Shown: positions 7,042 through 24,644 of the stretch, piece by piece
How the letters are laid out: each line of letters opens with the position of its first letter
Numbering within the stretch: position 1 is the stretch's first letter
Source of the DNA: Acidobacteriota bacterium
Lineage (GTDB): Bacteria; Acidobacteriota; Aminicenantia; UBA2199
Assembly (NCBI GenBank): GCA_022711715.1
Contig: JAKLEC010000010.1
Span: forward strand, 1-42,586
DNA length: 42,586 nt
Reading direction: 5' to 3'
Notes under the pieces: generated by a model
Told to the model about the DNA's origin: nothing
Database searches by the model: none
The model's input: only the letters and a program-made list of their open reading frames with translations
Translations under genes and position numbers: made by a program

Positions 7042-10014
<2,973 letters not shown>

Positions 10015-10118: not shown

Positions 10119-12908
10119 CTAGAACTTCAAGATGACCTTGATCTGGGCCCAACGCGGGAGTTGTCGTGCCCAGACCTGCCCGAAGGTCTCGTTGTCTTCT
10201 TTCATAAAAGAAACGGGCCTCTGGCTATTAAAGAGATTGTAGACGTTCAGGCCGATTCCGACCGTCAGCCCCTTTTGAACAGGGATTTCCTTTTCAATGG
10301 TTAAGTCAACGTACATATGGGCCGGCGTCGTTCTACCTCCGCGGCCCTCGGGGAAGGTGTAATATACCCCGTAGCCCGGCAACCACCCTTTCTTCTCCCA
10401 GTGATATCCCGAAAGATATTCGAGCCCCACAGAAACGACGACCCCGTATGGCGCGAAATAGGTCCCCAGAACCTTGACCATATGGTCGATGCTGTAGGGC
10501 AAAAAGCCATACCAGCCCTCATCGCCAAAGCCTGGCCCTCCCAGTCCTCCCCAGAGATAATCGACAATTTCCTTATTGGCGTCGCCCGCAGGCACATAGG
10601 GATGGTCGCCGAAGAGTCCGGCATCGTAACCGCTACCGCCTGCCTGGGCGTAGGACGACAATTCCCAGGAATTCCCCGGGTCCGTCCCTTTGGCTTGTGA
10701 CCACGTATAAGAAGCGTTCAGCAAGAATTGATTTGCGACCCGTCCGTTCAATTCGAATTCGATGGCTCTATAATTCCTTCGTTTCAGATCAAAATTCGTA
10801 AAGATGTACTTCAGCAATCCCGCCGACTCCGGATCGTAAATGGTGATATCTTCGGTAAGATTTTTGGAATAAGAATATACCCCCCTGATCTTCAGGGCCC
10901 AGTTCCCTCCCAGTTGCCGGTCGAATTCCAGCAGGAACTTGTTCATGCCACTGGGCTTGATTTGAGGATCGACCGTCTCCGGCGTAGCGGTGGCGCTTTG
11001 TTCATAAGCAAATTGCCAGTTGGCAGGATCTTTCAACTGCGAATCGGCGGGGTTTTCACCGCCTATCCAGCTGTAGCCCATGCCGCTGTAAAAATAATTA
11101 ACGTTGAAATATCCAAGCCACAGGATGGAGACCGGGATGGCGTAATGTCCATAGCCGAATTTCAGGACGTTGCGCCCGTCGCCTGACAAATCAATGGCCA
11201 CCGTAGCGCGCGGCTGCAAAAAATCCCCGAATCCCCAGCCCCATAACTTCTCGCCGATGTCGTTGAATATTTGTTGAGTATCGGACCTGAGTCCGGCCAT
11301 GAACGAAAACCGCCCGTGAGTAAAAGAATCCTGGAGATAAAGGCCAAAGCCGCGGGTCGCGTTGTTGCTCTGACCTATGCCAAATTCACGGAGGAACGAG
11401 GGTTGGCCAGGAGCCTCCCATTGAATACTGGCACCACCCTCGTAGCCGTTTCCCTTCCAGAGGTCGAAATCCGAGCCCGTATGCCGAAGGCGGCCCTCCC
11501 ACCCGTTTTGATAGTAGCTAAGTCCAGCCCTGATCTCGTGGTTTCCCCAGGTTCCCAGGTCCAGATAGTGGATCAAGCCCAGCGCCAGATCCGTTCTCCG
11601 CTCGATATCCGTCGTGTGCCATAAAGCGTTATTCGTTCTTTGGCCGATGTCCATCCAGAAATATTGAGGCGTTCCAAAGTCACCGGAGAGGGGGATCGTC
11701 TCAACCATCCGCCGGTAGTGGCCTGCGGCCGCTGTAAGGAGGGTGCTTTGCGACAAGATCCCCAGATAATTCAGCCCAAAGCAATTTTGGTTTGTGACGT
11801 TCTTTTCATAAGTTTCCGGCACACCGATCCCCCCGGTTTGACGGAGAAAGACGTCCAGCGTCCCGCTCAAGGACAGGGTATGATTTGCAAAGGGGGTGAA
11901 GGTAATCTTGCCGAAAATGCTGTTCTTCTGGACGGATCTCGCTCCAGCCGGGATGGTCAGCCAACCGATGGCCTGTTCCGTCGTCCGATCGGTCATCCGA
12001 TGATAGTCGTTGGACAGGAAAAACCACAGCTTGTCCTTGATGATCGGGCCGCCCAGGTTCCCGAAATAATCGGATAGCGATGTGTCGGGGACGCTGGCCG
12101 CCGAGAGCTGAGGTTGCCGCTGGGCCCGAAGATGCCCGTCGCGGATCAGGCCGCCGATTTCACCGTGAAATTCGTTGCTCCCGGATTTCGTAACAACGTT
12201 GACGAATCCTCCCAACGCCTGGCCTAGTTCAGGAGCGAATCCGTCGGAGATGACCTGGACCTCGTCCCAGGCGTCATAATTGACCTGGATTCCGGGGGTA
12301 TTGTATAAAGCCCCTTTGATCGATACTCCATCTATGAACCAGTTGTTTCCGGCATTTCCTTCTCCCCGAAAGCTGGGCAGCCCGGTATCCTTGCCCGTTT
12401 GCGTATCTGTTCTCACGCCGCTGACGCCCGGCGTGAAGCCAACGACCTCGGCGATCGTCCTGGCCTGGGTCGGAATCCGGGCGAGGTTGTCGCTCTTGAG
12501 CCGGTAGCTGTTATCGGCGTTAACCTTATCGATCATCGGGTTTGGGGCGCTGACGGTCACTTCTTCCTTGAGGGTTGCGATCGCAAGCACGATGGACAAA
12601 CTCGCCGTGAATCCCAAATGGACACCCTGGCCCGCGAGCGTCACTTTCTCGAATCCGGGAAGCTCGAAGGTCAGCGAGTAGGTCCCTAGCGGAAGCAGGG
12701 GAAGACGGAAATTGCCGTTCCTATCCGTTACGACGCTTCTCGTCCCCTGCAGGTTAGGACTTCTTGCTGTGACCGCAACCCCGGGGAGGGCCTCTATCTC
12801 TTGGTTCGTTACTTTTCCCCGGATCTCGCCTGTTTGCTGGGCCCCAAGATTCCCGAAGAGCAGAATAAGAAGAAAAACAGAAGCCGCAATTCTGAAGATG
12901 ATTTTCAT
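10119..12908 (-). CDS. TonB-dependent receptor with N-terminal carboxypeptidase-like domain
   Basis: A protein of 929 residues starting at the ATG at 12908, which has a strong GGGGGAGGG ribosome site; a TTG six codons upstream is disregarded. Signal peptide at about 1-23 (ending GNLGAQ). Residues about 27-105 are a carboxypeptidase-regulatory-like beta sandwich (GEIRGKVTN... VVTDRNGNFRLPLLPLGTYSLTF). A plug domain follows (about 110-240: RTIAEVVGFTPGVSG... FIDGVS... VQVISDGFAPELGQALGGFVNVVTKSG), then a 22-strand-type barrel ending in the aromatic-terminated ILKF expected of outer-membrane proteins. It should import a large or scarce nutrient through the outer membrane with TonB energy; the ligand is not predictable. 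It has no SusD partner nearby, and this Oar-like architecture is typical of Acidobacteriota-like genomes. It converges on K1 across a 104-bp gap with no clear terminator. Confidence 0.9.
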   Translation of the reverse strand: MKIIFRIAASVFLLILLFGNLGAQQTGEIRGKVTNQEIEALPGVAVTARSPNLQGTRSVVTDRNGNFRLPLLPLGTYSLTFELPGFEKVTLAGQGVHLGFTASLSIVLAIATLKEEVTVSAPNPMIDKVNADNSYRLKSDNLARIPTQARTIAEVVGFTPGVSGVRTDTQTGKDTGLPSFRGEGNAGNNWFIDGVSIKGALYNTPGIQVNYDAWDEVQVISDGFAPELGQALGGFVNVVTKSGSNEFHGEIGGLIRDGHLRAQRQPQLSAASVPDTSLSDYFGNLGGPIIKDKLWFFLSNDYHRMTDRTTEQAIGWLTIPAGARSVQKNSIFGKITFTPFANHTLSLSGTLDVFLRQTGGIGVPETYEKNVTNQNCFGLNYLGILSQSTLLTAAAGHYRRMVETIPLSGDFGTPQYFWMDIGQRTNNALWHTTDIERRTDLALGLIHYLDLGTWGNHEIRAGLSYYQNGWEGRLRHTGSDFDLWKGNGYEGGASIQWEAPGQPSFLREFGIGQSNNATRGFGLYLQDSFTHGRFSFMAGLRSDTQQIFNDIGEKLWGWGFGDFLQPRATVAIDLSGDGRNVLKFGYGHYAIPVSILWLGYFNVNYFYSGMGYSWIGGENPADSQLKDPANWQFAYEQSATATPETVDPQIKPSGMNKFLLEFDRQLGGNWALKIRGVYSYSKNLTEDITIYDPESAGLLKYIFTNFDLKRRNYRAIEFELNGRVANQFLLNASYTWSQAKGTDPGNSWELSSYAQAGGSGYDAGLFGDHPYVPAGDANKEIVDYLWGGLGGPGFGDEGWYGFLPYSIDHMVKVLGTYFAPYGVVVSVGLEYLSGYHWEKKGWLPGYGVYYTFPEGRGGRTTPAHMYVDLTIEKEIPVQKGLTVGIGLNVYNLFNSQRPVSFMKEDNETFGQVWARQLPRWAQIKVILKF

Positions 12909-12954
12909 TATTGTACCCTCCCCCAAATCCCCTTTATTTCTCCCTCGTCACTTA

Positions 12955-13070: not shown

Positions 13071-14096
13071 TCATCCGCCCGAGCGCTCGCGCAGCATGCG
13101 CAGCTGCCAGAGCTCGCGCGGGCTGGCGTGCAGCAGCGGCGCCAGCAAGCGCCAGCCGAGCGGGCCGATGCTGCGCCGAAGCGCCGCCAGCTCACGGAAC
13201 TTCTCCCCCACCCCGGGGTCGGCCGGCAGCGGGATCTCCTGCTCCTGCAGCAGCAGCACCGCCTTGGCCTTGATTGCGAGTTCCACGTGCAGCTGCAGGG
13301 CACACAGCATGTCGGCCAGGACGTAGCCGGGCAGGCGGTCGCGCAGGGACTGCAGGTAGCGGCCGATGTTGGAGGCCAGGAACTTCCCCTCGCGCAGCAT
13401 CTGCAGGAGCTCGAGGTCGCCGCCGAAGCCGGCCTCCAGCCAGCGGCGCAGCGAGCGCTCGCTGCGGCGATAGACCAGCAGGATGGTCAGCGGCAGGGCG
13501 ACCAGGAACACGATCGAGGCCAGCATTTGCCCGCGCAGCGAAAAGTGGTTGTACAGCGAGTGGACCAGCACGGCAACGGCCAGCCCGGGCAGCAGGTCCA
13601 GCGCACGCTCGCACTGCGCCCTCTCGGCGGCGGCCTTGGCCAGGATGCCAACCAGGGCCACGGTGCCGCCGTGCATGACCGCGGTGCCGAAGCCGCGGAT
13701 GAGCCAGTGCACGGGGGCGGCGCCGCCGGCACTGCGGAGGAAGACGACGTTTTCGAACAAGGCGAAGCCGGCGCCGATGGCGAAGCCGGCGATGGCGGTG
13801 TCGACGAGGAAGCCCAGCCGGCGGCGGCGCAGCAGCACGAAAAGGTACAGCGCCTTGGCCGACTCCTCGATGACCGGGGCCGCATAGCGGGAATAGGCGG
13901 CGGCGCCCATCCCCGTGGCAACGATCAGGCGCTGGTTCAGCAGCAGGCAGAGCACGGCCGCCCCGGCGCCGGCCAGGAGCGCCTCGATCAGCAGACGCGG
14001 CCCCACCAGGCGGAAGTCGTCGAAAGCGTAGAGGACGGCGGCGAACGTCAGCACGGGCACGAAGCCCAGGCCGGCGCGCAGCGCCAGGACGTCCAT
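13071..14096 (-). CDS. PrsW-family intramembrane protease
   Basis: A protein of 341 residues with about eight hydrophobic segments in the first 210 residues. The PrsW signature set is present: E77-E78-x2-K81 in VIEESAK, FALFEN (111-116), MHGG (His142) and HSLYNHF (His179). PrsW proteins cut within or next to membrane helices; the Bacillus subtilis member makes the first cut in the anti-sigma factor RsiW. Residues about 211-341 form a soluble, helical, Leu/Arg-rich cytoplasmic extension not found in the minimal family. The ATG lies 2 bp past the stop of the upstream gene, so it is translationally linked to the metalloprotease-like gene and, more distantly, to the ECF sigma gene. An inferred role is release of a membrane-bound regulator; the repeat protein encoded in this cluster is the natural candidate substrate. 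The frame is open much further upstream, but that part is a shadow of the neighbouring gene. Confidence 0.82.
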   Translation of the reverse strand: MDVLALRAGLGFVPVLTFAAVLYAFDDFRLVGPRLLIEALLAGAGAAVLCLLLNQRLIVATGMGAAAYSRYAAPVIEESAKALYLFVLLRRRRLGFLVDTAIAGFAIGAGFALFENVVFLRSAGGAAPVHWLIRGFGTAVMHGGTVALVGILAKAAAERAQCERALDLLPGLAVAVLVHSLYNHFSLRGQMLASIVFLVALPLTILLVYRRSERSLRRWLEAGFGGDLELLQMLREGKFLASNIGRYLQSLRDRLPGYVLADMLCALQLHVELAIKAKAVLLLQEQEIPLPADPGVGEKFRELAALRRSIGPLGWRLLAPLLHASPRELWQLRMLRERSGG

Positions 14097-14098
14097 GG

Positions 14099-17047
14099 TC
14101 AGATCTTGAGCGAGACCATCCACTCCCCGGTCGGGTCTCGGCCCGGGGCAAAGGCCCGGGCGTAGCCCAGCGACAGGGTCAGCTGGTGGTGCGAGAGGGC
14201 GATCAGGCGGACGTCGACCTGCAGGCCGACGTCGCCCCAGCGGCGGGGCCCGCTTTGCCGGTCGAGGTCGGTGAGCAGTCCGCCGGCGAACAGCGAGGGG
14301 CTGACCCAGTTGGCGTAGAAGAAGGGGAATCCCAGGCGGCGGAAGAAGAGCGGCGGCAGGTTCCATTCCAGCGTCAGCTTGGCGAAGCGCCGGCCTGCGG
14401 CTTCGTTCAGCTCGAGCCCCGGGAAGCCCTGCCATTCGCGGTAACGCTTGCTGGCCTGGCGGTCGACCCAGTTGTTGCCGAAGCCGCCGAAGTAGAAGCT
14501 GGCGAAGGGATCGCCGCGGTCGCCGAGGGCGGCACCGGCGGCGCCGCGCAGCCACAGCGAGGAGTGGCGCAGCGGCAGGGCGCTCCCCAGGTCGAGGCAG
14601 CCGTACAGGCGCGGGTAGACCCGCTGGTTGACGTAGGCGCCGCCCAGGGCCAGCCGGTACTGCACCCCCTTCTCGTCCTCGACCGCCGCCAGCGAACGGC
14701 GCAGGTACTTGTAATCCAGGCGCGCGTCCAGGGTGAAGAAGCGCCCGTGCTCGATGCCGACGTTCTGGTAGTCAGGCAGGCGCTCCATGTTGAAATAGGC
14801 GGCGCCGTGGAGGTTGTAGTCAAGGAAGCGGTTCGGCTCGTCATAGATCAGGTTGCGGCTGTACTGCAGCGACAGCGACTGCCCCTTGCGGCTGGCCTTG
14901 GTGGGGCCGAACAGGTCGTAGAAGTCGGCGGCGTTGTGGGTGGCGGCAAGCTCCCAGTTGCGCAGCGCCGCGCGCAGGCGCAGGTGCAGGCGCTCGCCGG
15001 CCAGGAGGCCGTTGTCGGGGGAATAGCTGGCCGTCAGGTCGACGCGCTCCAGGCTGATCTTGTCGGCCAGGTGCAGGTGCAGGCCGACCGCCGGGGAATC
15101 CTTGTAGCCCTCCAGCACGGGATAGAGCGACTTGAGCCCCATCTGGCTTCCCAGGCGGTAGCGGCCGCTCGAGCGGGTCAACGGCCGGGGATCGATGAGA
15201 CCGGGATTCTCGGCCAGCCAGCCGCGCACCTGCGGATGCGCCTCGCCGAGCTTCTGGCCCAGCATGGCGATGGCCCGCACTTGCAGACCCTTGGGCCGGT
15301 TGGCCGAGATGACGGCGGGCCGGAAGCCCTCGGCGGTGTAGCGGAAGACCAGCAGCGAGCCGTCGTCCAGCGGCACCGGGCGGAAGAAGCCGCCGTCGGT
15401 GTTGGTCAGGGCCTCGACCCGGCCGGAGCCCATGTCGCAGCGGTAGATGTTGGCCACTCCCGAGTAGTAGGAGGAGCCGTACAGCCAGCGGCCGTCGCGG
15501 GAGAAGACGAAGCCGGCCGGCGAGCTGTTCTCGAAGTCGGAGAGGGTCTGGTGCGCCTCCTCGCCGGCCAGCAGCCGGTTCAGGTCGATCCGCACCAGCG
15601 ACTGCCGGCCGCTGACCTCGGTGAGCGCCGCGGCCAGCCAGCGGCCGTCGGGGGAGATGGAAATGTCGTAGAGGTCCTTGCCGTAGGGCCAGGAGTATAC
15701 CTGCTTCCATTCGCGGTAGGGCGGCATGATGCGCACGATGGTGGAGATGCCGTTGTAGTGGCGCACGCCCCACAGCGAGCGGTCGGCGCGGTTGAAGGCC
15801 AGGTCGCCGATGCGGCCGTCGCGGATGAGCCGGCGCGAGCGGCCGCTGTCGACGTCCAGGCGGCGCAGGTCGCGCCAGGCGTTGTTGTCGGTGGTATAGA
15901 AAAGGACGCCGCCCTCCTCGTCGTAGGCCAGCGAGCAGACGCTGTACAGGGCCGGCCCCTTGACGTCGCGCAGCTTGCGCAGGGAGCCCGTGTCGAGGTC
16001 CAGCGCCGCCAGGTGGGCTGCCTGGCCGGGATAATTGACCCCCAGGAACACCTGGCGCCGCCGGGCGTCGTAGAACGCCGGCGACACCGATCCCAGCGCC
16101 CTCTTGGAGACGTCGCGGAAAGGGGTGAGCGGGCTGGAGCGGACGGCCGCCAGGTTCGCCTCCTGGAACTCCCTCTCCCAGGCGATCCACTCGGCCCAGG
16201 CCCGGCCCAGCGGCCTGCCGAACACCTTGCGGAACTGGGAGGCGAAATAGGCGCGGCTGCCGTCGTCGCGGGAAACCCAGCGGATAAGGCTCTCCGGTCC
16301 GTACTGCAAGCCCAGGTAGCCGAAGAAGCGGGTGCCGTACAGGTAGGAGATCGCCCCGACCTGGAAGTCGCGCCGCGTCCCCGCCGACTCCAGGGCGACC
16401 AGGTCGTAGATGCGGCTCCCCTCCCCGACCAGGGTGCGGAAGACCATCTCGTCGTAGCAGCCGAGCAGCCGGCCGTAGCCGCCCGAGAGCCAGGTCTCCA
16501 TGAACACGGCGATCCCCTCCATGAACCAGCGCGGGGTATAGAGGCGGGGGGTGGTCAGGTAGCCGTAGGCCATGGTCAGGGGATTGTCCTCGCTGGGAGT
16601 GACCTTGCCGAAGAACAGCGAGCGGAACAGGCGGTCGGAGCGCGCCGCCTTGTCGCTGGTGAGGACGTGCACCAGCTCGTGCTGCATGATGGCGTTGACG
16701 CGCTCGGCGGCGGGCATGGTTTCGAACACGTAGCTCGCCGGGGCGATGCCGGCGATGATGGTGTTCTGCGGCACGGCGCCGGCGGCGGCGTTCGAATAGT
16801 CGCTGAAATCGTGCAGCAGGACCGTGACCTTCTCGCTGGGCCGGTAGCGGAACAGCCGGCCGTGCATGCGCAGGGCGCTGACGAAGCTGGAAACGGCGTG
16901 GCCGGCCAGGAACGACTCGGCTGGAAAATACAGCAGCCTCAGGTCATCGGTCTCCAGCTTCTGCACCTGCGCCGGCAGCCGTCCGGCCGCCAGCCCCGAC
17001 ACCAGGAGCGCCGCGGCCAGGCGCGCGGCGCGCACCGTTATTTTCAT
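14099..17047 (-). CDS. Secreted HExxH peptidase-like / beta-propeller / outer-membrane barrel protein
   Basis: A protein of 982 residues from the ATG at 17047 (GGAGGG ribosome site; an earlier in-frame start lacks one). Signal peptide at about 1-27. Residues 35-310 look like a gluzincin metallopeptidase: QHELVHVL with His123, Glu124, His127, and a possible third ligand Glu177 in RWFMEGIAVF. Residues about 320-620 contain WD40/TolB-like propeller blades (DISISPDGRWLAAAL, GFVFSRDGRWLYGSSYYSG, ANIYRCDMGSG). Residues about 650-982 are beta-rich with alternating hydrophobic residues and a final WMVSLKI, resembling an outer-membrane barrel such as the C-terminal part of surface-antigen (D15-like) proteins. 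It is probably anchored in the outer membrane with the peptidase facing the periplasm or outside. The start is about 112 bp after the repeat-protein stop, across a hairpin. Its place between the membrane repeat protein and PrsW suggests a role in envelope surveillance (inference). Confidence 0.72.
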   Translation of the reverse strand: MKITVRAARLAAALLVSGLAAGRLPAQVQKLETDDLRLLYFPAESFLAGHAVSSFVSALRMHGRLFRYRPSEKVTVLLHDFSDYSNAAAGAVPQNTIIAGIAPASYVFETMPAAERVNAIMQHELVHVLTSDKAARSDRLFRSLFFGKVTPSEDNPLTMAYGYLTTPRLYTPRWFMEGIAVFMETWLSGGYGRLLGCYDEMVFRTLVGEGSRIYDLVALESAGTRRDFQVGAISYLYGTRFFGYLGLQYGPESLIRWVSRDDGSRAYFASQFRKVFGRPLGRAWAEWIAWEREFQEANLAAVRSSPLTPFRDVSKRALGSVSPAFYDARRRQVFLGVNYPGQAAHLAALDLDTGSLRKLRDVKGPALYSVCSLAYDEEGGVLFYTTDNNAWRDLRRLDVDSGRSRRLIRDGRIGDLAFNRADRSLWGVRHYNGISTIVRIMPPYREWKQVYSWPYGKDLYDISISPDGRWLAAALTEVSGRQSLVRIDLNRLLAGEEAHQTLSDFENSSPAGFVFSRDGRWLYGSSYYSGVANIYRCDMGSGRVEALTNTDGGFFRPVPLDDGSLLVFRYTAEGFRPAVISANRPKGLQVRAIAMLGQKLGEAHPQVRGWLAENPGLIDPRPLTRSSGRYRLGSQMGLKSLYPVLEGYKDSPAVGLHLHLADKISLERVDLTASYSPDNGLLAGERLHLRLRAALRNWELAATHNAADFYDLFGPTKASRKGQSLSLQYSRNLIYDEPNRFLDYNLHGAAYFNMERLPDYQNVGIEHGRFFTLDARLDYKYLRRSLAAVEDEKGVQYRLALGGAYVNQRVYPRLYGCLDLGSALPLRHSSLWLRGAAGAALGDRGDPFASFYFGGFGNNWVDRQASKRYREWQGFPGLELNEAAGRRFAKLTLEWNLPPLFFRRLGFPFFYANWVSPSLFAGGLLTDLDRQSGPRRWGDVGLQVDVRLIALSHHQLTLSLGYARAFAPGRDPTGEWMVSLKI

Positions 17048-17090
17048 TTCGCCCTCCGCGGGCAGGCGGGGCGGGGTCCGCATAGACGGC

Positions 17091-17124
17091 GGGGTGCCGT
17101 TCCCGCACGCGGGAGCGGCACCCC
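17091..17124. other. Strong hairpin between repeat-protein gene and peptidase gene
   Basis: GGGGTGCCGTTCCCGC and GCGGGAGCGGCACCCC form a 16-bp stem with one G-T pair and almost no loop. No T-run follows on the minus strand, so it is not a standard terminator. It may stabilise or attenuate the mRNA between the two genes and set their ratio. Confidence 0.6.
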
Positions 17125-17159
17125 TTTATCTTCCCCCCACCCTCCTGGATGCCCCAGGA

Positions 17160-18680
17160 TCATTCGCTGGCAGCCAGCGCCTCCTGGAACATCTTGCTGG
17201 CCATCAGCCCGGCGAAGCTCTTGTCGGCCATCAGCGCCGCGAAATTGGGATTGGTCCGCAGCCCGGCCCACGCCTTGTCGGCCAGCAGCGCCGCGAAGTC
17301 GGGATTCGTCCGCACCCCGGCCCACGCCTTGTCGGCCAGCAGCGCCGCGAAGTCGGGATTGGTGCGCAGCCCGGCCCACGCCTTGTCGGCCATCAGCGCC
17401 GCGAAGTCGGGATTGGTGCGCAGCCCGGCCCAGGCCTTGTCGGCCAGCAGCGCCGAGAAGTCGGGATTGGTGCGCAGCCCGATCCAGGCCTTGTCGGCCA
17501 TCAGCGCCGCGAAGTCGGGATTGGTGCGCAGCCCGGCCCAGGCCTTGTCGGCCATCAGCGCCGCAAAGTCGGGATTGGTGCGCAGCCCGGCCCAGGCCTT
17601 GTCGGCCAGCAGCGCCGCGAAGTCGGGATTGGTGCGCAGCCCGGCCCACGCCTTGCTGGCCAGCAGCGCGGCGAAGTCGGGATTGGTGCGCACTCCGGCC
17701 CAGGCCTTGCTGGCCAGCAGCGCCGCAAAGTCGGGGTTAGTGCGCAGGCCGGCATAGGCCTTTTCCGCCATCAGGCCGGCGAACGCCTTGTCAGCCATCA
17801 AGGCCTCGAAGCTCCCCTTCTCGAGCCGGCCGGCGAACGCCTTGTCGGCCATCAGGTCGGCAAATCGCCGATCGGCCATCAGCGCCGCAAAGTCGGGATT
17901 GGTCCGCACCCCGGCCCACGCCTTGTCGGCCAGCAGCGCCGCGAAGTCGGGATTGGTGCGCAGACCGGCCCAGGCCTTGCTGGCCAGCAGCGCCGAAAAG
18001 TCGGGATTGGTGCGCAGACCCGCCCAGGCCTTGCTGGCCAGCAGCGCCGCGAAGTCGGGATTGGTGCGCAGCCCGGCCCAGGCCTTGTCGGCCATCAGCG
18101 CCGCGAAGTCGGGATTGGTGCGCAGGCCCGCCCAGGCCTTGCTGGCCAGCAGCGCCGCGAAATCGGGATTGGTGCGCAGGCCCGCCCAGGCCTTGCTGGC
18201 CAGCAGCGCCGCGAAGTCGGGATTGGTGCGCAGCCCGGCCCACGCCTTGCTGGCCAGCACGTCGGCGAAACGCCGGTCGGCCATGAGGCGGTTGAAGCGC
18301 CGGTCGGCCATGAGCCCGGCGAACGCCTTGTCCTGCATCGCCCGCTTGAAGGCCTTGTTGGCGATCAGGCCCTGGATCTGCTCGTTCTGCAGCAGCTGCT
18401 GGAGCTGGTCGTCGCCCAGCACTACGTCCTGCTCGGCCAGCGGCTCGACCCGCTGGCGGTTGACCTTCTCCACCCCGCCGATGGTGCCCACGGTGGCGGA
18501 ATTGTCAGTGCTCGACGGCCACGGGTAGAAGAACGCGAAATAGCCGATCACGCAGACGGCGAGCGCCAGGCCCGCCACCCCCCACATCAACCTCTTTTGT
18601 CTCCGATCCATGGTTTGTACCTCCCCCCCTTGGTTTATTTTTGCCTCGTAATATCTCTTCAGGTCACGCCCGATCGTCAT
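17160..18680 (-). CDS. Single-pass membrane protein with 46 nonapeptide repeats (candidate sigma-linked sensor)
   Basis: A protein of 506 residues from the ATG at 18680 (AGAGGAGAGG ribosome site). A second in-frame ATG at 18611 has an even stronger GGGGGGAGG site, so a shorter form may also be made. A basic segment (MDRRQKR) precedes one membrane helix (about 31-52), implying N-terminus inside and the bulk outside. After a linker, residues 90-503 are exactly 46 consecutive 9-residue units with no insertion or deletion, pattern x-x-x-[FWIL]-x-x-[LVA]-x-x, for example DKAFAGLMA, SKAWAGLRT, NPDFAALLA. In two runs (7 and 10 copies) the units alternate as an 18-residue pair. The helical periodicity suggests a solenoid or rod. 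No zinc-binding anti-sigma motif is seen and the cytoplasmic part is only about 30 residues. It follows the ECF sigma gene directly, the usual place of an anti-sigma factor. Family not recognised. Confidence 0.8.
   Translation of the reverse strand: MTIGRDLKRYYEAKINQGGEVQTMDRRQKRLMWGVAGLALAVCVIGYFAFFYPWPSSTDNSATVGTIGGVEKVNRQRVEPLAEQDVVLGDDQLQQLLQNEQIQGLIANKAFKRAMQDKAFAGLMADRRFNRLMADRRFADVLASKAWAGLRTNPDFAALLASKAWAGLRTNPDFAALLASKAWAGLRTNPDFAALMADKAWAGLRTNPDFAALLASKAWAGLRTNPDFSALLASKAWAGLRTNPDFAALLADKAWAGVRTNPDFAALMADRRFADLMADKAFAGRLEKGSFEALMADKAFAGLMAEKAYAGLRTNPDFAALLASKAWAGVRTNPDFAALLASKAWAGLRTNPDFAALLADKAWAGLRTNPDFAALMADKAWAGLRTNPDFAALMADKAWIGLRTNPDFSALLADKAWAGLRTNPDFAALMADKAWAGLRTNPDFAALLADKAWAGVRTNPDFAALLADKAWAGLRTNPNFAALMADKSFAGLMASKMFQEALAASE
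17226..17765 (-). repeat. 54-bp tandem repeat, 10 copies
   Basis: Ten in-register 54-bp units encode the pair (D/S)KAWAGLRT + NPDFAALxA. Units are nearly identical, differing mostly at L/M, D/S and L/V codons, which suggests recent expansion or gene conversion. Confidence 0.9.
17874..18251 (-). repeat. 54-bp tandem repeat, 7 copies
   Basis: Seven units of the same 54-bp repeat, separated from the ten-copy run by four divergent nonapeptide units (17766-17873). This stretch may be an older part of the array. Confidence 0.9.
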
Positions 18681-18734
18681 GGCCTCTCCTCTGCCCATAT
18701 AGACGAGGGCCGAGAAGAAATGTTGGCGGAAAAA

Positions 18735-19295
18735 TCAACGCCCGAGGCGGCGTTTCAGAATGGCCTTCAGGGAATGGATCTTCGCCTTCACCGCCTCGAC
18801 GTCGAGGCCGACGACGAGGCCGATCTCGCGGTACTTCAGCCCTTCATAGAAGCGCAGGTAGCAGATCTCGCGCTCCAGGGGCGGCAACTCGTTGACGGCG
18901 CGGTCGATGCATTCCAGCAGCTCCTGGCGCATGACGCGCTGTTCGGGATCGGCCGCCGGCCGGTCGCCGACCAGGTCGGGATCGCCCTGCCGCAGCCGGC
19001 GCTGCTTCTCCTCCCGGCTCTTGACCAGGTCCAGGCACTGATTGCGCACGATCCTGTAGATCCAGGCCTTGAAGGAATGGCCGGGGTCGAAGCTGTCCAG
19101 GTGGTTGTAGATCTTGACCATGACCTCCTGGCAGACGTCCTGGTACTCGCCATGGTCGCGGGGGACGATCTGGCTCACGTAGAACTCGATGCGCCGGCGA
19201 TAGTTCCTGCAGATGTAGTCGTAGAGTTCGGCCTTCTGCCGGGGAGCGAACGAGGAGCCGATGAACAGGTGGAATTTCGCCGTCAGCGGATTCAT
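18735..19295 (-). CDS. ECF-type RNA polymerase sigma factor
   Basis: A protein of 186 residues, the usual length for an ECF sigma factor. Region 2 is visible in EYQDVCQEVMVKIYNHLDSFDPGHSFKAWIYRIVRNQCLDLVK (given here as its two halves: the D-x2-Q-E-x2-K core and the F-x-A-W-I-Y-R-I-x-R-N motif). Region 4 is visible near the C-terminus: ELPPLEREICYLRFYEG, then YREIG and VEAVKAKIHSLK, a helix-turn-helix that reads the -35 element. It should direct RNA polymerase to a stress or envelope regulon. It is first in a minus-strand string with the repeat membrane protein, a secreted peptidase-like protein and PrsW. It has its own good sigma-70-like promoter. No C-terminal extension is present, so control probably depends on a separate protein. 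Confidence 0.92.
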   Translation of the reverse strand: MNPLTAKFHLFIGSSFAPRQKAELYDYICRNYRRRIEFYVSQIVPRDHGEYQDVCQEVMVKIYNHLDSFDPGHSFKAWIYRIVRNQCLDLVKSREEKQRRLRQGDPDLVGDRPAADPEQRVMRQELLECIDRAVNELPPLEREICYLRFYEGLKYREIGLVVGLDVEAVKAKIHSLKAILKRRLGR

Positions 19296-19387: not shown

Positions 19388-19417
19388 ATTATAGGAACCC
19401 CGTTCGCTAAAAGTCAA
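19388..19417 (-). promoter_or_regulatory. Promoter of the ECF sigma gene string
   Basis: Minus strand TTGACT (19412-19417), 18-bp spacer, TATAAT (19388-19393), about 90 bp before the sigma start. A near-consensus housekeeping promoter, so basal transcription of the sigma gene is probably not solely autoregulated. Confidence 0.6.
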
Positions 19418-19463: not shown

Positions 19464-19904
19464 ATGAACCCGGGCGGGAACATGGAGGCGCGATTCCCCG
19501 GCACGCTGGAGTCGCTGCCGCTGCTGCACGACGCCGTCGCCCGCTTCTGCGGCGGCCAGGCCGTCCGCCCCGACGCGGCGTTCAAGATCGACCTGGCGCT
19601 GGAGGAGGTGTTCTCCAACATCGTCCGCCACGGCTACGGCGACGGCCGGCCCCACGAGATCACCGTCCGGCTCGAGCGCCGGCGCGGCCGCGTCCGCATC
19701 CAGGTCGACGACGACGGCCGGCCGTTCGACCCCCTGCTGGCCCCGGAGGCGGACGTCGCCGCCCCGCTGGACGAGCGCCGCCCCGGCGGCCTGGGCATCC
19801 ATCTGGTGCGGCGGCTGCTGGACCAGATCCGCTACCAGCGCCGCCCCGACGGCAACCGCCTGATCCTGGTCAAGCGCCTCGGCGCAGAGGAGAGATCCAC
19901 ATGA
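19464..19904 (+). CDS. RsbW/SpoIIAB-like anti-sigma serine kinase
   Basis: A protein of 146 residues with the GHKL ATPase pattern: N-box DLALEEVFSNIVRHGY (Glu47, Glu48, Asn52), G1-box DDDGRPFDP (82-90), and G2 region GGLGIHLV (108-115). In partner-switching systems this kinase binds either a sigma factor or an unphosphorylated STAS protein and phosphorylates the latter on serine. Its stop overlaps the STAS start by 4 bp (ATGA), so the pair is translationally coupled. An alternative start at 19482 (second Met) has a clearer ribosome site. The target is not stated by sequence: the only sigma factor in sight is the divergent ECF gene, which is not a typical RsbW partner. Confidence 0.88.
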   Translation: MNPGGNMEARFPGTLESLPLLHDAVARFCGGQAVRPDAAFKIDLALEEVFSNIVRHGYGDGRPHEITVRLERRRGRVRIQVDDDGRPFDPLLAPEADVAAPLDERRPGGLGIHLVRRLLDQIRYQRRPDGNRLILVKRLGAEERST

Positions 19905-20233
19905 CCATCCGCGAAAGCAAGACGGATTCCTTCGCCCTGCTGGGGATCGGCGGCCGCGTCGACTCGCTGAACGCCGAGACGCTCAAAGGCCGCCTGCAGG
20001 AGATCGGCCAGCGCGAGGCGCGCATCCTGGTCGACTGCACCGCCCTGGAGTACATCGGCAGCGCCGGCCTGGGCGCGCTGCTGGTCCTGCTCAAGCTGGT
20101 CCGCAAGCAGGGGGGAACACTGCGGTTGTTCGGCCTCTCGCCGCACATCGCCGAGGTGTTCGCCATCGCCGGCTTCGACAAATTGTTCGCCATCTTCCCC
20201 GACTTGGAATCGGCGCGGCAGGCCGCGACGTAA
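19901..20233 (+). CDS. STAS-domain anti-sigma factor antagonist (RsbV/SpoIIAA-like)
   Basis: A protein of 110 residues, a single STAS domain. VDCTALEYIGSAGLGALL carries the conserved Asp-x4-5-Tyr-x-Gly-Ser signature with Ser54 as the expected phosphorylation site. When dephosphorylated by the PP2C phosphatase it would bind the HATPase kinase and free that kinase's partner. The start overlaps the kinase stop by 4 bp. A gap of about 150 bp with its own promoter separates it from the phosphatase gene. Confidence 0.9.
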   Translation: MTIRESKTDSFALLGIGGRVDSLNAETLKGRLQEIGQREARILVDCTALEYIGSAGLGALLVLLKLVRKQGGTLRLFGLSPHIAEVFAIAGFDKLFAIFPDLESARQAAT

Positions 20234-20332
20234 GACCGGCCCGCCCCTTGCCGGCCCCCTTTCCCGCCTGGGGGGCGGGAGGACGGGCAAAAGCCTCCGG
20301 CTAGGGATTTTCCCCTTTTCCGCCCGCAACGG

Positions 20333-20361
20333 TTGATATTTCGTTTTTCAATCGTTAAAAT
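20333..20361 (+). promoter_or_regulatory. Promoter of the phosphatase-kinase gene string
   Basis: TTGATA (20333-20338), 17-bp spacer, TAAAAT (20356-20361), 25 bp before the phosphatase ATG. It would allow the phosphatase and K2-K5 to be expressed apart from the anti-sigma pair. A weak 7-bp stem (20262-20280) lies upstream with no T-run. Confidence 0.5.
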
Positions 20362-20385
20362 CATTGACAAGGGAAAGGTGGGGGA

Positions 20386-21708
20386 ATGGAACGAAAGGAC
20401 CCGGCGGGGGACGACAGGAGTCTTCTCGATGAAGTCCAGCGCCTGGGCAGGGAGAACCGGCGCCTGCAGCGCGCCGTCGAAGAGCTGGCCATCCTCAACG
20501 AGATCGCCACGGCCATCAACTCGTCGCTGGCGCTGGAGAAGATCCTCGACCTGATGACCCAGCGCTGCGTCCACCACCTGCGCGCCGAGCAGGGGGCGGT
20601 GCTGCTGCTGGAAGAGCACAAGGAGGAGCGGCCGTTCCAGACCCTGTGCCGCGTCGGCGACACCAGCCACAAGCGGCTCCCCTTCCGCCTCGACGACCAA
20701 TTGGCGGGCTGGATGCTGACCCACCGCGCGCCGCTGCTGATCAACGACCTGGGCAGCGACCCGCGCTTCGCCACCGGCGTGGGCGACCTCTTCGCCGTGC
20801 GCTCGCTGCTGTGCGTGCCCATGATCTGCAAGGGGCGCATGACCGGCCTGCTCGCCGTGTTCAACAAGAAGTCGGGAACGGGATTCAGCGAGGACGACCA
20901 GCGTCTGCTGGCCATCATCGCCAGCGAGTCGGCGCAGGTGATCGAGAACGCCCGCCTGGCCGAGAAGGAGAAGACGCTGCTGCGCGTCCAGGAGGAGCTG
21001 AGCCTGGCGCGAGAGATCCAGGGCAACCTGCTGCCCAAGGATACGCCGCGGCCGCCGGGGTACGACATCGCCGGCAAGAGCGTGCCGGCCAAGGAGGTCG
21101 GCGGCGACTACTACGACTTCCTCGTCCTGGACGGCCCCCGCCTGGGCTTCTGCCTGGGCGACGTCTCGGGCAAGGGCCTGCCGGCGGCGCTGCTCATGGC
21201 CAATCTGCAGGCGGCGATCCGCGGCCAGGCTCTTTCCGGCACCTCGCCGACCTCGTGCCTGGAGAAGGTCAACACCCTCCTCTACCGCAGCACCAGCCCC
21301 GAGAAGTTTGCCACCCTGTTTTTCGCCTGCCTGGATACGGTGGCCCACCTCATCCACTACTGCAACGCCGGGCACAATTATCCGCTGCTGCTCCGCGCCG
21401 GCGGCGGGACGATCCGCCTGAGCGCCGGTGGGCTGGCGCTGGGCTGCCTGGAGTCGTTCCCCTTCGAGGAGAGCCGGACGGAGCTGGCGCCGGGCGACCG
21501 GCTGATCGTCTTTTCCGACGGCGTCAGCGAGGCGGTCAACGCCGCGGACGAGGAGTTCGGCGAGGAGCGCATCGCCGAGATCGCCGCCTCAGATCCTGGC
21601 GCCACCGCCACCGAGCTGATCGAAATGATCCTGCAGGCTGTCGGCCGCCACGCCGCCGGCCGTGCGCAGATGGACGACATGACCCTGGTGGTGATCCGGA
21701 GGGAATGA
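20386..21708 (+). CDS. GAF-domain PP2C phosphatase (RsbU/SpoIIE-like)
   Basis: A protein of 440 residues. A short coiled coil (about 12-38) leads to a GAF domain (about 38-190), then a helical linker with the SLAREIQGNLLP motif typical of RsbU-like enzymes (205-217). The PP2C/SpoIIE domain (about 228-440) has the metal-binding aspartates in EVGGDYYDF (Asp241), GDVSGKG (Asp259), FSDGVSEA (Asp378) and QMDDMT (Asp430/431). It would dephosphorylate the STAS protein in response to a small ligand or redox signal bound by the GAF domain. Its stop (TGA) overlaps the ATG of kinase K2 by one base (TGATG), which ties phosphatase and kinase production together. A GGTGGGGGA ribosome site precedes its ATG. 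Confidence 0.92.
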   Translation: MERKDPAGDDRSLLDEVQRLGRENRRLQRAVEELAILNEIATAINSSLALEKILDLMTQRCVHHLRAEQGAVLLLEEHKEERPFQTLCRVGDTSHKRLPFRLDDQLAGWMLTHRAPLLINDLGSDPRFATGVGDLFAVRSLLCVPMICKGRMTGLLAVFNKKSGTGFSEDDQRLLAIIASESAQVIENARLAEKEKTLLRVQEELSLAREIQGNLLPKDTPRPPGYDIAGKSVPAKEVGGDYYDFLVLDGPRLGFCLGDVSGKGLPAALLMANLQAAIRGQALSGTSPTSCLEKVNTLLYRSTSPEKFATLFFACLDTVAHLIHYCNAGHNYPLLLRAGGGTIRLSAGGLALGCLESFPFEESRTELAPGDRLIVFSDGVSEAVNAADEEFGEERIAEIAASDPGATATELIEMILQAVGRHAAGRAQMDDMTLVVIRRE

Positions 21709-24644
21709 TGCCCGGCCGGACCGTTTCCCATTACCGCATCCTGCAAAAGATCGGAGCGGGTGGGATGGGAGAGGTTTTTCTCGCCGAGGACACCCAGCTC
21801 GAGCGCAGGGTGGCGCTGAAGTTCCTGCCGGCTCAGTTAAACGCCGACGAGGATGAGCGGCAGCGCTTCGTCCACGAGGCCAAAGCGGCGGCCGCCCTCA
21901 GCCACCCCAACATTGTCACGGTCTACGAGATCGGCGACCACGAGGGCCAAATCTTCATCGCCATGGAGTACGTCGACGGCCACACACTCAAGGAATTGAT
22001 TTCCTTCGACCGTCCACCGTCTACCGTCCACCGTCTACCGATTTCTCAAGTTCTCGACATCGCCGCCCAAATCGCCTCGGGCCTTTCCGCCGCCCATGAG
22101 AAGGGCATCGTCCACCGCGACCTGAAGCCGGCCAACGTCATGGTCACCGCGCAGGGAGTGGTGAAGATCGTCGACTTCGGCCTGGCCAAGCTGCGGGGCC
22201 TGTCGCGGCTGACCAAGAGCGGCACCACCCTGGGCACGGTGGCCTACATGTCGCCCGAGCAGGCCCTTGGAAAAGAAGTTGACCAGCGCTCCGACATCTG
22301 GTCGCTGGGAGTGATCCTCTATGAAATGCTCGCGGGTCGACTCCCCTTCCGCGGCGATTATGACCAGTCCATGCTGTATGCCATCATCAACGAGGAGCCA
22401 CCCATTATGGCATCTGCGGGTGGCCAGATGTTTCCAGATCTGGAAAAGGTCGTCAGGAAGGCATTGAATAAAATTCCTGAGCAGAGGTATCCGGCCATCG
22501 CCGATTTAATCGTCGCCCTCGATAAATGTCGGCGGCAAATCCAGGCGCCCGGGAACGATGGAACAGGAAGCATTTCACGCTTTTTAAAAAATCCTCGGTT
22601 CATCGTTCCCGCGACGATCGCTGTTCTGACATTGAGCTATTTTGGCATCAATTTTTTCAAGCATCAGGCGAAACGGCGTTGGATTGAAGCAAAAATTCTC
22701 CCCCGTCTCTTCACTCTGGTTGAATCTGGAAGGGAGAGCTTCCCAGAGGCCTTTCAATTGGCAAGCGATGCCGAGAAACACCTCCCGGGGGACGAGAGAA
22801 TCTCAGAGGCATTCGGGAAGATCTCTTTACGAATCGATATCCGATCCACCCCCCCGGGGGCCGATGTATTCATGCGCGACTATCGGAAAACCGAAGGGGA
22901 ATGGAAGCATTGCGGGATCACGCCGATCGAGGGAATTCGATTGCCCTTGGGGTTCTTCAAGGTATCAATGGCCAAGAAGGGATACAAAACGATCATGTCA
23001 TGTGCCTCGAACTTCGAATACGACCTGAAAGGCTCCCAGGTCTATACCCCAAGCCATATTTTCAAGACGTTGGATAAAGACGGGGAGATCCCCGCTCGCA
23101 TGGTAAGGGTCACAGGCAACAGTCAAATGGAGGATTTCTTTTTCGACCAGTATGAAGTCACCAACAAGGAATTCAAGGCGTTTTTAGTGAACGGCGGCTA
23201 CCAAAAACGGGGGTTTTGGAAAGAGGAATTTATTAAGGACGGGAAAAGATTGTCCTGGCCGGAAGCCATCGGCGAATTTGTCGACCAAACCGGGATTCCC
23301 GGACCAGCAGGATGGCAATCAGGGACCTACCCTGACGGGGAGGATGACTTCCCGGTCACGGGCGTTAGCTGGTATGAGGCCGCAGCCTACGCCGAATACG
23401 CCGAGAAAACTCTGCCCACGCTGGCTCACTGGGAAATGGCGGCGGGAGGATTTTCTACACTGGCCAACATGGGTTTCTTTTCTCTCCTGGCTTCGCAAAG
23501 CAACTACGATGGCCAGGGACCGGCTCCCGTCGGCCGCTACCCGGGCGTAACGACCTGTGGAGCCTACGACATGGCGGGGAACGCGAGGGAATGGTGCCGG
23601 AACGATTCCCCGCAGGGCAAAATCATCCGTGGAGGCGCCTGGAACGATGCAACGTACCTTTTTCAGGATTTGAGCCAGGCCTCCCCTTTTGACAGGTCCC
23701 CACGGAATGGCTTCCGTTGTGCCATCTATCTCCACCCCGATATAATCCCTGTATCCGCGTTCGAACCGGTTCAATTGACCAAACCTCCCGATTTGGAGAA
23801 AATCAAGCCGGTCGCCGATTCGGTTTTCCGAGCTTACCTGACTCAATTTTCCTATGACAAGACCGACCTTGATGCACGGGTGGAGTGGCGGCACGAAAGC
23901 ATCGGAGATTGGATCCTGGAAAAACTCACCTTCAAGGCCGCCTATGAAAAGGAACGCATTATTGCTTATCTGTTTCTGCCCACGAACAGCCAGCCTCCTT
24001 TTCAAACGGTGATTTATTTCCCGGGCAGCGGCTGCCTGGAACAGGGTTCAAGTGCAAACCTCGAGGACTACTGGGAATTCAGGGACCGCCTCTCCTTCCT
24101 TCCCGCCAGCGGCCGGGCGATACTCTTTCCCGTTTATAAAGGGACATTTGAGCGCCGGGACCCCTCCCTGGTCTCTGCAGCAATTGATTCGCACCGCCAT
24201 GTTGAATGGATCATCAAACTGGTCAAGGACTTCAGGAGGTGCATCGACTACCTAGAGAGCCGGCCCGATATCGACCATGAAAGAATTGCCTATTTTGGCT
24301 TCAGCTGGGGTGGAGTCATGGGTGCCATCATTCCGGCCGTGGAAGACCGCCTGCGGGCAAGCATTCTCGCCGTGGGCGGCCTCGAAGGCTTCTCAGCACT
24401 CCCAGAGGTCAACATGATCAATTATATCGGAAGAGTGAAGCTGCCCACCCTAATGCTCAACGGCAAGTACGATCTGATTCTTCCATTTGAAATTTCGGTC
24501 AGACCAATGTTTGAACGGCTGGGAACTCCTCGTGAGAAGAAGTTCATCAGGCTTTTCAATACGGACCACTTTATTCCCAAGAATCAATATGTCAAGGAAA
24601 TCCTAGCATGGCTCGACAAGTATTTGGATCCGGTAAAGCGATGA
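21708..24644 (+). CDS. Membrane Ser/Thr kinase-PEGA-SUMF1-like-hydrolase fusion (K2)
   Basis: A protein of 978 residues with the same four-part plan as K1. The kinase domain has IGAGGMG, Lys38, HRD (136-138), DFG (156-158) and an activation segment (RLTKSGTTLGTVAYMSPEQ) nearly identical to K1 and K3. Relative to K1 it has exactly seven extra residues after the KEL segment (about 101-111, DRPPSTVHRLP), encoded by a heptamer array at 22010-22040. One membrane helix lies near 305-325 (FIVPATIAVLTLSYFGINFF). The outer part has a PEGA-like domain (STPPGADVF... LPLGFF... KKGYK), a SUMF1-like domain (DQYEVTNKEF... VTGVSWYEAAAYAEYA... MAGNAREW... RGGAWNDATYLF... NGFRC) without the formylglycine-enzyme cysteine pair, and an alpha/beta hydrolase with GFSWGG, NGKYD and NTDHF. 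An ATG one codon upstream (21705) is also possible. It is coupled to the phosphatase gene, so its phosphorylation output may meet the partner switch. Confidence 0.88.
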   Translation: MPGRTVSHYRILQKIGAGGMGEVFLAEDTQLERRVALKFLPAQLNADEDERQRFVHEAKAAAALSHPNIVTVYEIGDHEGQIFIAMEYVDGHTLKELISFDRPPSTVHRLPISQVLDIAAQIASGLSAAHEKGIVHRDLKPANVMVTAQGVVKIVDFGLAKLRGLSRLTKSGTTLGTVAYMSPEQALGKEVDQRSDIWSLGVILYEMLAGRLPFRGDYDQSMLYAIINEEPPIMASAGGQMFPDLEKVVRKALNKIPEQRYPAIADLIVALDKCRRQIQAPGNDGTGSISRFLKNPRFIVPATIAVLTLSYFGINFFKHQAKRRWIEAKILPRLFTLVESGRESFPEAFQLASDAEKHLPGDERISEAFGKISLRIDIRSTPPGADVFMRDYRKTEGEWKHCGITPIEGIRLPLGFFKVSMAKKGYKTIMSCASNFEYDLKGSQVYTPSHIFKTLDKDGEIPARMVRVTGNSQMEDFFFDQYEVTNKEFKAFLVNGGYQKRGFWKEEFIKDGKRLSWPEAIGEFVDQTGIPGPAGWQSGTYPDGEDDFPVTGVSWYEAAAYAEYAEKTLPTLAHWEMAAGGFSTLANMGFFSLLASQSNYDGQGPAPVGRYPGVTTCGAYDMAGNAREWCRNDSPQGKIIRGGAWNDATYLFQDLSQASPFDRSPRNGFRCAIYLHPDIIPVSAFEPVQLTKPPDLEKIKPVADSVFRAYLTQFSYDKTDLDARVEWRHESIGDWILEKLTFKAAYEKERIIAYLFLPTNSQPPFQTVIYFPGSGCLEQGSSANLEDYWEFRDRLSFLPASGRAILFPVYKGTFERRDPSLVSAAIDSHRHVEWIIKLVKDFRRCIDYLESRPDIDHERIAYFGFSWGGVMGAIIPAVEDRLRASILAVGGLEGFSALPEVNMINYIGRVKLPTLMLNGKYDLILPFEISVRPMFERLGTPREKKFIRLFNTDHFIPKNQYVKEILAWLDKYLDPVKR
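22010..22040. repeat. Heptamer array inside kinase K2, class CCGTCCA/CCGTCTA
   Basis: Units CCGTCCA, CCGTCTA, CCGTCCA, CCGTCTA plus a partial CCG. The array is in frame and encodes the segment missing from K1 and K3. Three heptamers are 21 bp, or seven codons, so the frame is kept. Confidence 0.85.

Follow-up and report, generated by a model that had tools for sequence, protein, structure and literature searches.

The four genes at positions 13,071 to 19,295 of the window, by which we mean the whole 42,586-nucleotide stretch analyzed here (contig JAKLEC010000010.1 of an Acidobacteriota bacterium of the Aminicenantia, UBA2199), belong to a gene cluster whose order, RsbW-STAS-ECF sigma-X-Y-H-PrsW, is conserved around relatives of H in about 15 phyla. 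Y is a membrane protein with a periplasmic repeat array, H a secreted metallopeptidase-like protein with a propeller and a barrel, and X a protein that lies between sigma and Y in most loci. We see about an even chance that this locus represents one lineage's own form of a widespread cluster for signaling from the envelope to the nucleoid, with Y as a minimal anti-sigma factor that exists in a long and a short form, PrsW and H as proteases, and the RsbW module as a second input. The literature searched contained no description of this cluster or of its repeat protein; the 2021 ECF reclassification lay outside that search, so a matching ECF group may exist.

The first-pass annotation had described four same-strand genes, and all four are present on the minus strand where it had placed them. 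(i) The ECF sigma factor (18735..19295, 186 amino acids) matched TIGR02937 (E = 1e-29) and Sigma70_r2 and r4_2 above the cut-off, and 6 related genomes have an orthologue at the equivalent position. Its gene is preceded by a housekeeping-type promoter, TTGACT-18-TATAAT (19388..19417, minus strand), which is near-consensus in the window and in four same-genus relatives. (ii) Y (17160..18680) consists of a cytoplasmic N-terminal part, one transmembrane region, the juxtamembrane motif VGTIGGVEK, and 46 periplasmic nine-residue repeats. The start proposed earlier, 18698, is replaced by 18680 as the more likely one, and there is a second start at 18611. (iii) H (14099..17083, with a likely start at 17047) combines a secreted zinc-metallopeptidase-like domain, a TolB-like beta-propeller, and a C-terminal outer-membrane-type beta-barrel. 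(iv) The PrsW-family intramembrane protease (13071..14096) starts at 14096, next to the end of H at 14099, in agreement with the reported spacing of 2 bp.

Two features of the locus had been overlooked, namely, the absence of the usual anti-sigma gene X and a divergent set of genes (19464-21708, plus strand) that is conserved beside sigma. This set encodes an RsbW/SpoIIAB-like serine kinase or anti-sigma factor of the HATPase_c_2 type (19464..19904), whose N-box residues E48 and N52 and G2 glycines are conserved in 47 homologues, an RsbV-like STAS anti-anti-sigma factor with a conserved Ser54 (19901..20233), and an RsbU-like phosphatase with GAF and SpoIIE/PP2C domains (20386..21708); in relatives, the phosphatase gene adjoins RsbW/STAS or comes after PrsW. 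Two further observations concern the surroundings. At least three long window proteins (7042-10014, 21700-24644, and 24658-27627) unite a Ser/Thr kinase with an FGE-sulfatase domain and end in an alpha/beta-hydrolase-like part, and kinases of a similar kind lie beside the locus in relatives. Downstream of PrsW, positions 10119-12926 encode a TonB-dependent-receptor-like outer-membrane protein (CarboxypepD_reg, Plug), for which the related loci examined showed no conservation.

To compile the related loci, GTDB contigs were scanned with an alignment of H. This retrieved 134 relatives, of which 80 were kept; their phylum labels, about 15 in number, include Acidobacteriota, Bacteroidota, Ignavibacteriota, Latescibacterota, Eiseniibacteriota, Krumholzibacteriota, Fidelibacterota, Zixiibacteriota, Gemmatimonadota, and Pseudomonadota, although single labels may be wrong because most H relatives come from metagenome-assembled genomes. 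Since H alone served as the query, the neighboring genes played no part in the choice of loci; they were called with one profile per neighbor gene and with score thresholds set in this analysis. All seven genes were found in 29 of the 50 loci with enough upstream sequence, and the individual counts among these 50 were 40 for sigma, 40 for STAS, 39 for RsbW, and 37 for X. Y lies directly upstream of H in 56/61 loci with enough sequence, and PrsW is present in 69/74. This conservation of gene order far exceeds chance, and the order is trans-phylum rather than unique to this genome.

H has a patchy distribution within the phylum of the window, occurring in 15 of 247 sampled genomes and always as a single copy. 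In the carriers of the window-type sigma (G015, G009, G005, G012, G022, and G028), sigma again has these RsbW and STAS genes beside it, and sigma, Y, H, and PrsW follow in order wherever the contig is long enough. Five contigs (G004:C250, G006:C70, G008:C36, G009:C485, and G022:C297) stop inside H or immediately ahead of the Y repeats. Because contigs break at H or at the Y repeats, the locus is often split in metagenome-assembled genomes, and sigma may look absent. An apparent loss of sigma in the same-genus genomes G002, G004, G006, and G008, which have H and in which no sigma was found, was for this reason not counted: their contigs with H break off inside that gene or just before Y, the repeats probably breaking the assembly. 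In other loci (L053, L055, L077, L106, and L120), Y, H, and PrsW were found without sigma or X. In three Bacteroidales loci (L115, L117, and L121), the genes are rearranged to PrsW-sigma-X-Y-H, Y lacks a significant repeat, and no RsbW/STAS lies nearby. Tandem Y paralogues without a nearby sigma or X occur in L091 (7512-9643) and L120 (7414-9835), three in the Delongiibacteriota locus and two in the Fidelibacterota locus.

The HExxH-propeller-barrel architecture assigned to H earlier is borne out by its AlphaFold2 model (mean pLDDT of 90), which contains a helical HExxH domain, a propeller that matches TolB (Foldseek E values down to 1.6e-9), and a C-terminal barrel. Residues H123, E124, H127, and E177, i.e., the His and Glu of HExxH and a downstream Glu, are invariant in 43 sequences. 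Because these metal ligands and catalytic residues are invariant, H is likely a working metallopeptidase. The PrsW assignment also stands: PF13367 scored 72.5 bits (cut-off, 23.5), and the motifs EExxK, FxxxEN, H142, and HxxxN are conserved in 69 sequences, although the protein does not reach the equivalog-level model NF033739 (29.9 bits versus a cut-off of 225). Beyond the Pfam model, PrsW carries an extra C-terminal domain (residues ~205-335; window positions 13071-13480) that is conserved in all loci, with W219, G245, D262, E272, K278, E302, and W330 nearly invariant. M50 proteases are also encoded in the window genome.

X consists of a cytoplasmic domain, one transmembrane region, and a periplasmic domain. 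Its profile matched RsiW best among PDB structures (5wuq; E = 7.4e-8, over the whole domain), followed by RskA, and by this likeness X of the related loci is an anti-sigma factor. In Bacillus subtilis, PrsW is the site-1 protease of the anti-sigma factor RsiW (PMC10202637). The proposed link of PrsW to an anti-sigma factor is thereby strengthened, since all catalytic motifs are present in PrsW and the anti-sigma factor of the sister loci is closest to a known PrsW substrate. A gene-neighborhood study, for its part, places PrsW mainly in toxin processing (PMC3482391). An RsiW-like class I anti-sigma gene beside sigma, as seen in the 37 related loci with X, was not found in the window. Elsewhere, no X-like protein was detected in the window genome (G000, 82% complete) or in G009, G022, and G028 (genomes 70 to 87% complete). 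An orphan X was hence discarded as a candidate; weak matches in G005 and G015 adjoin other ECF genes.

In at least eight loci, the anti-sigma domain of X is fused straight to Y, in place of the transmembrane region and periplasmic domain of X. The clear fusions are L060, L062, L065, L069, L079, L081, L082, L088, L092, and L143, the last from the same class as the window. Loci L070 and L107 were first scored as fusions and are now considered uncertain; they are kept out of the clear cases, yet are labelled as fused in the H tree. This tree requires six changes between the fused and separate states, and fusion occurred by more than one event. Repeated fusion to the anti-sigma domain of X links Y to the control of sigma. 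The earlier interpretation holds to the extent that several lineages have counterparts of the repeat protein joined to an RsiW-like anti-sigma domain; it does not hold for the trio of Y, H, and PrsW as solely a sigma sensor, since the trio also occurs without sigma or X and must therefore have some further role too.

The fusions keep an ATG with a strong Shine-Dalgarno sequence at the position of the stand-alone Y start. A strict GGAGG or AGGAG motif was found in 9 of 10 loci scored as fused, the tenth being the uncertain L107, which has a weak motif and fails the strict one; among control in-frame ATGs in the frames of H, PrsW, and PP2C, the strict motif was found in 28 of 2,397 (1.2%). The window has the corresponding arrangement. 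Its Y starts at 18680 and 18611 each have their own Shine-Dalgarno sequence, that of the latter being a GGAGG within the Y reading frame (18620..18624, minus strand), and the in-frame ATG at 18611, which gives the short form (17160..18611), corresponds to the Y start of loci with a stand-alone X gene. The strict motif is present at this site in 7/7 loci of the window clade. Fisher p values of 1.7e-16 for the fusions and a p value of 7e-14 for the window clade overstate independence, because the loci within each group share ancestry. Ahead of the internal start, Y of the window clade has a conserved 23-residue extension. Third codon positions change most in these 23 codons (e.g., 4/4/11), and another genus retains the LKKYY core; judged by this pattern, the extension is constrained at the level of the protein. 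Both a long and a short Y would be made from these nested starts.

The long Y, read from 18680, comprises 506 amino acids, with the single hydrophobic segment at residues 31-49, as expected from its earlier description as a single-pass membrane repeat protein. About 30 residues precede the transmembrane region and include a predicted helix with an ELKKYY-type motif. Helices are predicted at residues 3-15 and 26-35, where the model has a pLDDT below 50. No known anti-sigma motif had been noticed in Y, which is right for Pfam: in a comparison of the extension with anti-sigma families there was no significant match, and the NepR hit (E = 0.12, 12.5 bits) stayed under its cut-off of 25.7. Pfam and NCBIfam also gave no credible family for Y. 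In class I anti-sigma domains, helix 1 lies on sigma4 and helix 4 on sigma2, whereas in the class II protein CnrY two short helices suffice, sigma4 being bound by the first and sigma2 by the last (PMC7406223). By analogy, the two predicted N-terminal helices of Y could serve like those of CnrY.

The array of Y (17175..18416, minus strand) is formed by 46 uninterrupted nonapeptides with the consensus A-D/N-K/P-A/D-F/W-A-G/A-L-M/L/R. Among 62 loci, the period of Y was 9 or 18 in 38 and 12 in 9, and no period was significant in 6. The repeat register is steady while the residues turn over, as illustrated by ADKAFAGLM in the genus of the window, SDEVLRKAL in L040, and KDARFAELM in L058. AlphaFold2, run with an alignment of three sequences only, predicted a chain of seven-residue helices (pLDDT of ~70 to 80), for which a Foldseek search against PDB folds returned no match (best E value of 3.7). 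The resemblance to the DP repeats of STI1/HOP, which consists in short helices with N/D-P caps (e.g., NPDFAALL) and a summed Pfam score of 32.3 versus 29.1, was not retained as an assignment: no single stretch or individual repeat is significant, the 9-residue period is strict, and the PDB search gave no fold match.

To judge from the trees and gene content, the window lineage is derived. In the sigma tree, the window clade branches apart from 44 sigma factors of canonical loci, although a joint clade with these was not rejected by the AU test (p-AU of 0.64). In the H tree, window H groups with its nearest relatives, those of L053 and L055, both loci without sigma and X, and a relative of the same class (G046, locus L143) has a canonical sigma and a fused anti-sigma domain-Y protein. 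One reading is a loss of both sigma and X from the window clade, with a different ECF sigma brought in alongside the Y extension; the window-clade sigma may be such a replacement. A search for ECF-type promoters upstream of the locus genes gave no convincing enrichment, with at best 9 observed versus 3.8 expected upstream of sigma, and an autoregulatory ECF promoter of sigma was not found, the sigma promoter being of the housekeeping type.

In the model we favor, the cytoplasmic N terminus of the long Y, acting as a minimal two-helix anti-sigma factor, would hold sigma at the inner membrane and keep it inactive, and the periplasmic array of Y would extend toward H in the outer membrane, with its barrel, propeller, and zinc peptidase. 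Either H or the Y array would be the sensor of envelope disturbance. Upon such disturbance, H and/or PrsW would cut Y, with PrsW as the site-1 protease and an M50 protease probably acting at site 2, and sigma would be freed. The internal start would provide an extra, shorter Y that lacks the part binding sigma. Elsewhere, in the majority of lineages, the anti-sigma domain is either a separate RsiW-like X or joined to Y, and RsbW/STAS/PP2C would form a second, cytoplasmic input. Several points weigh against this model: Y-H-PrsW occurs without sigma (the chief one), the window sigma may be a replacement, the Y extension matches no anti-sigma family significantly and is modelled with low pLDDT, RsbW could be the anti-sigma factor, and no autoregulatory ECF promoter was found. 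A more far-reaching version, which we consider conceivable but doubtful, makes the nested-start Y a new kind of anti-sigma factor, in which sigma-binding and sigma-free forms of a membrane-anchored short-helix solenoid would be co-assembled across the periplasm as a sensor; its sequence would turn over while the 9-residue period is kept, and it would be read by the outer-membrane propeller-protease and PrsW.

RsbW-like kinases are themselves anti-sigma factors, and RsbW may be that of the present ECF sigma, under partner switching by STAS and PP2C, with Y-H-PrsW as an output that the circuit makes or tunes rather than its sensor. RsbW (39/50 loci) and STAS (40/50) lie mostly directly upstream of sigma, the N-box of the kinase and the serine of STAS are conserved, and the window clade has retained both genes where X is gone. 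There is also a precedent in the btr locus of Bordetella, where an ECF sigma factor is accompanied by RsbW-, RsbV-, and RsbU-like proteins; however, none of BtrU, BtrV, and BtrW acts as a negative regulator (PMC7498569). The dedicated RsiW-like X of 37/50 loci also speaks against this possibility, and RsbW/STAS remain where sigma is absent (L053, L077, and L120), so that sigma is not their sole target. We regard it as rather unlikely.

Alternatively, Y-H-PrsW could be mainly an envelope machine, either a bridge from the inner to the outer membrane or a complex that processes outer-membrane proteins. Sigma, X, and RsbW/STAS would then be variably present regulators, and PrsW would cut substrates of the machine instead of an anti-sigma factor. 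This is consistent with the persistence of the trio in loci without sigma and X, with the stand-alone start that Y keeps even when fused to the anti-sigma domain, and with the greater uniformity of H, which in distant phyla is 41 to 54% identical to the window protein, compared with X (18 to 42% within its own set). The repeated X-Y fusion and the RsiW-like X next to PrsW, on the other hand, argue that Y and PrsW are part of sigma control, and we judge such a machine to be unlikely. That the neighbors are adjacent by chance and that the repeat protein is of low complexity and unrelated to them has in its favor only the absence of family names for Y and is exceedingly improbable, given the trans-phylum synteny, which rules out chance adjacency of the genes, the conserved juxtamembrane motif, and the 9-residue register.

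The cluster can be compared with several established systems. (i) Control of an RsiW-like anti-sigma factor by PrsW is already known in Bacillus, and the sigmaW-RsiW-PrsW(-RasP) pathway of B. subtilis shares with the cluster an ECF sigma, a membrane anti-sigma factor (X of the relatives, which matches the RsiW structure), a PrsW with all motifs, and an M50 protease in the genome. In contrast, the setting here is of the Gram-negative type, with an outer-membrane propeller/barrel metallopeptidase, a periplasmic repeat protein, and a partner-switching module; the window clade lacks an RsiW-like protein, and PrsW has the added C-terminal domain. (ii) Of the class II anti-sigma factors CnrY and NepR, whose sigma-binding part comprises two helices in fewer than about 50 residues, Y may resemble CnrY in its short, predicted two-helix cytoplasmic segment before one transmembrane region, but it differs from both in lacking a significant sequence match and in having an internal start and a large array of periplasmic repeats. 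(iii) As in the Rsb and Btr modules (RsbU-V-W, and BtrU-V-W with the ECF factor BtrS), a HATPase_c_2 kinase, a STAS protein with a phosphoserine site, and a SpoIIE phosphatase are found beside a sigma gene; the module of the cluster, however, coexists with a membrane anti-sigma factor and PrsW and is also present without sigma, and the sigma is an ECF factor and not of the SigB/SigF type. (iv) H shares only the propeller fold with TolB, to which it adds the HExxH domain and the beta-barrel, and it scored 22.9 bits against the TolB equivalog TIGR02800 (cut-off, 343.15). (v) In FecR/TonB-dependent cell-surface signaling, an outer-membrane protein likewise acts on an ECF sigma through a membrane anti-sigma factor, but H is a metallopeptidase with a propeller and a barrel rather than a TonB-dependent receptor, and no FecR domain was found in Y.

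If the favored model is correct, a trans-phylum cluster in which PrsW is linked to RsiW-like proteins, a repeat sensor, and a protease/barrel of the outer membrane would indicate how such a circuit spans two membranes. Such a cluster would also give concrete, testable predictions on the two starts of Y and on its cleavage.
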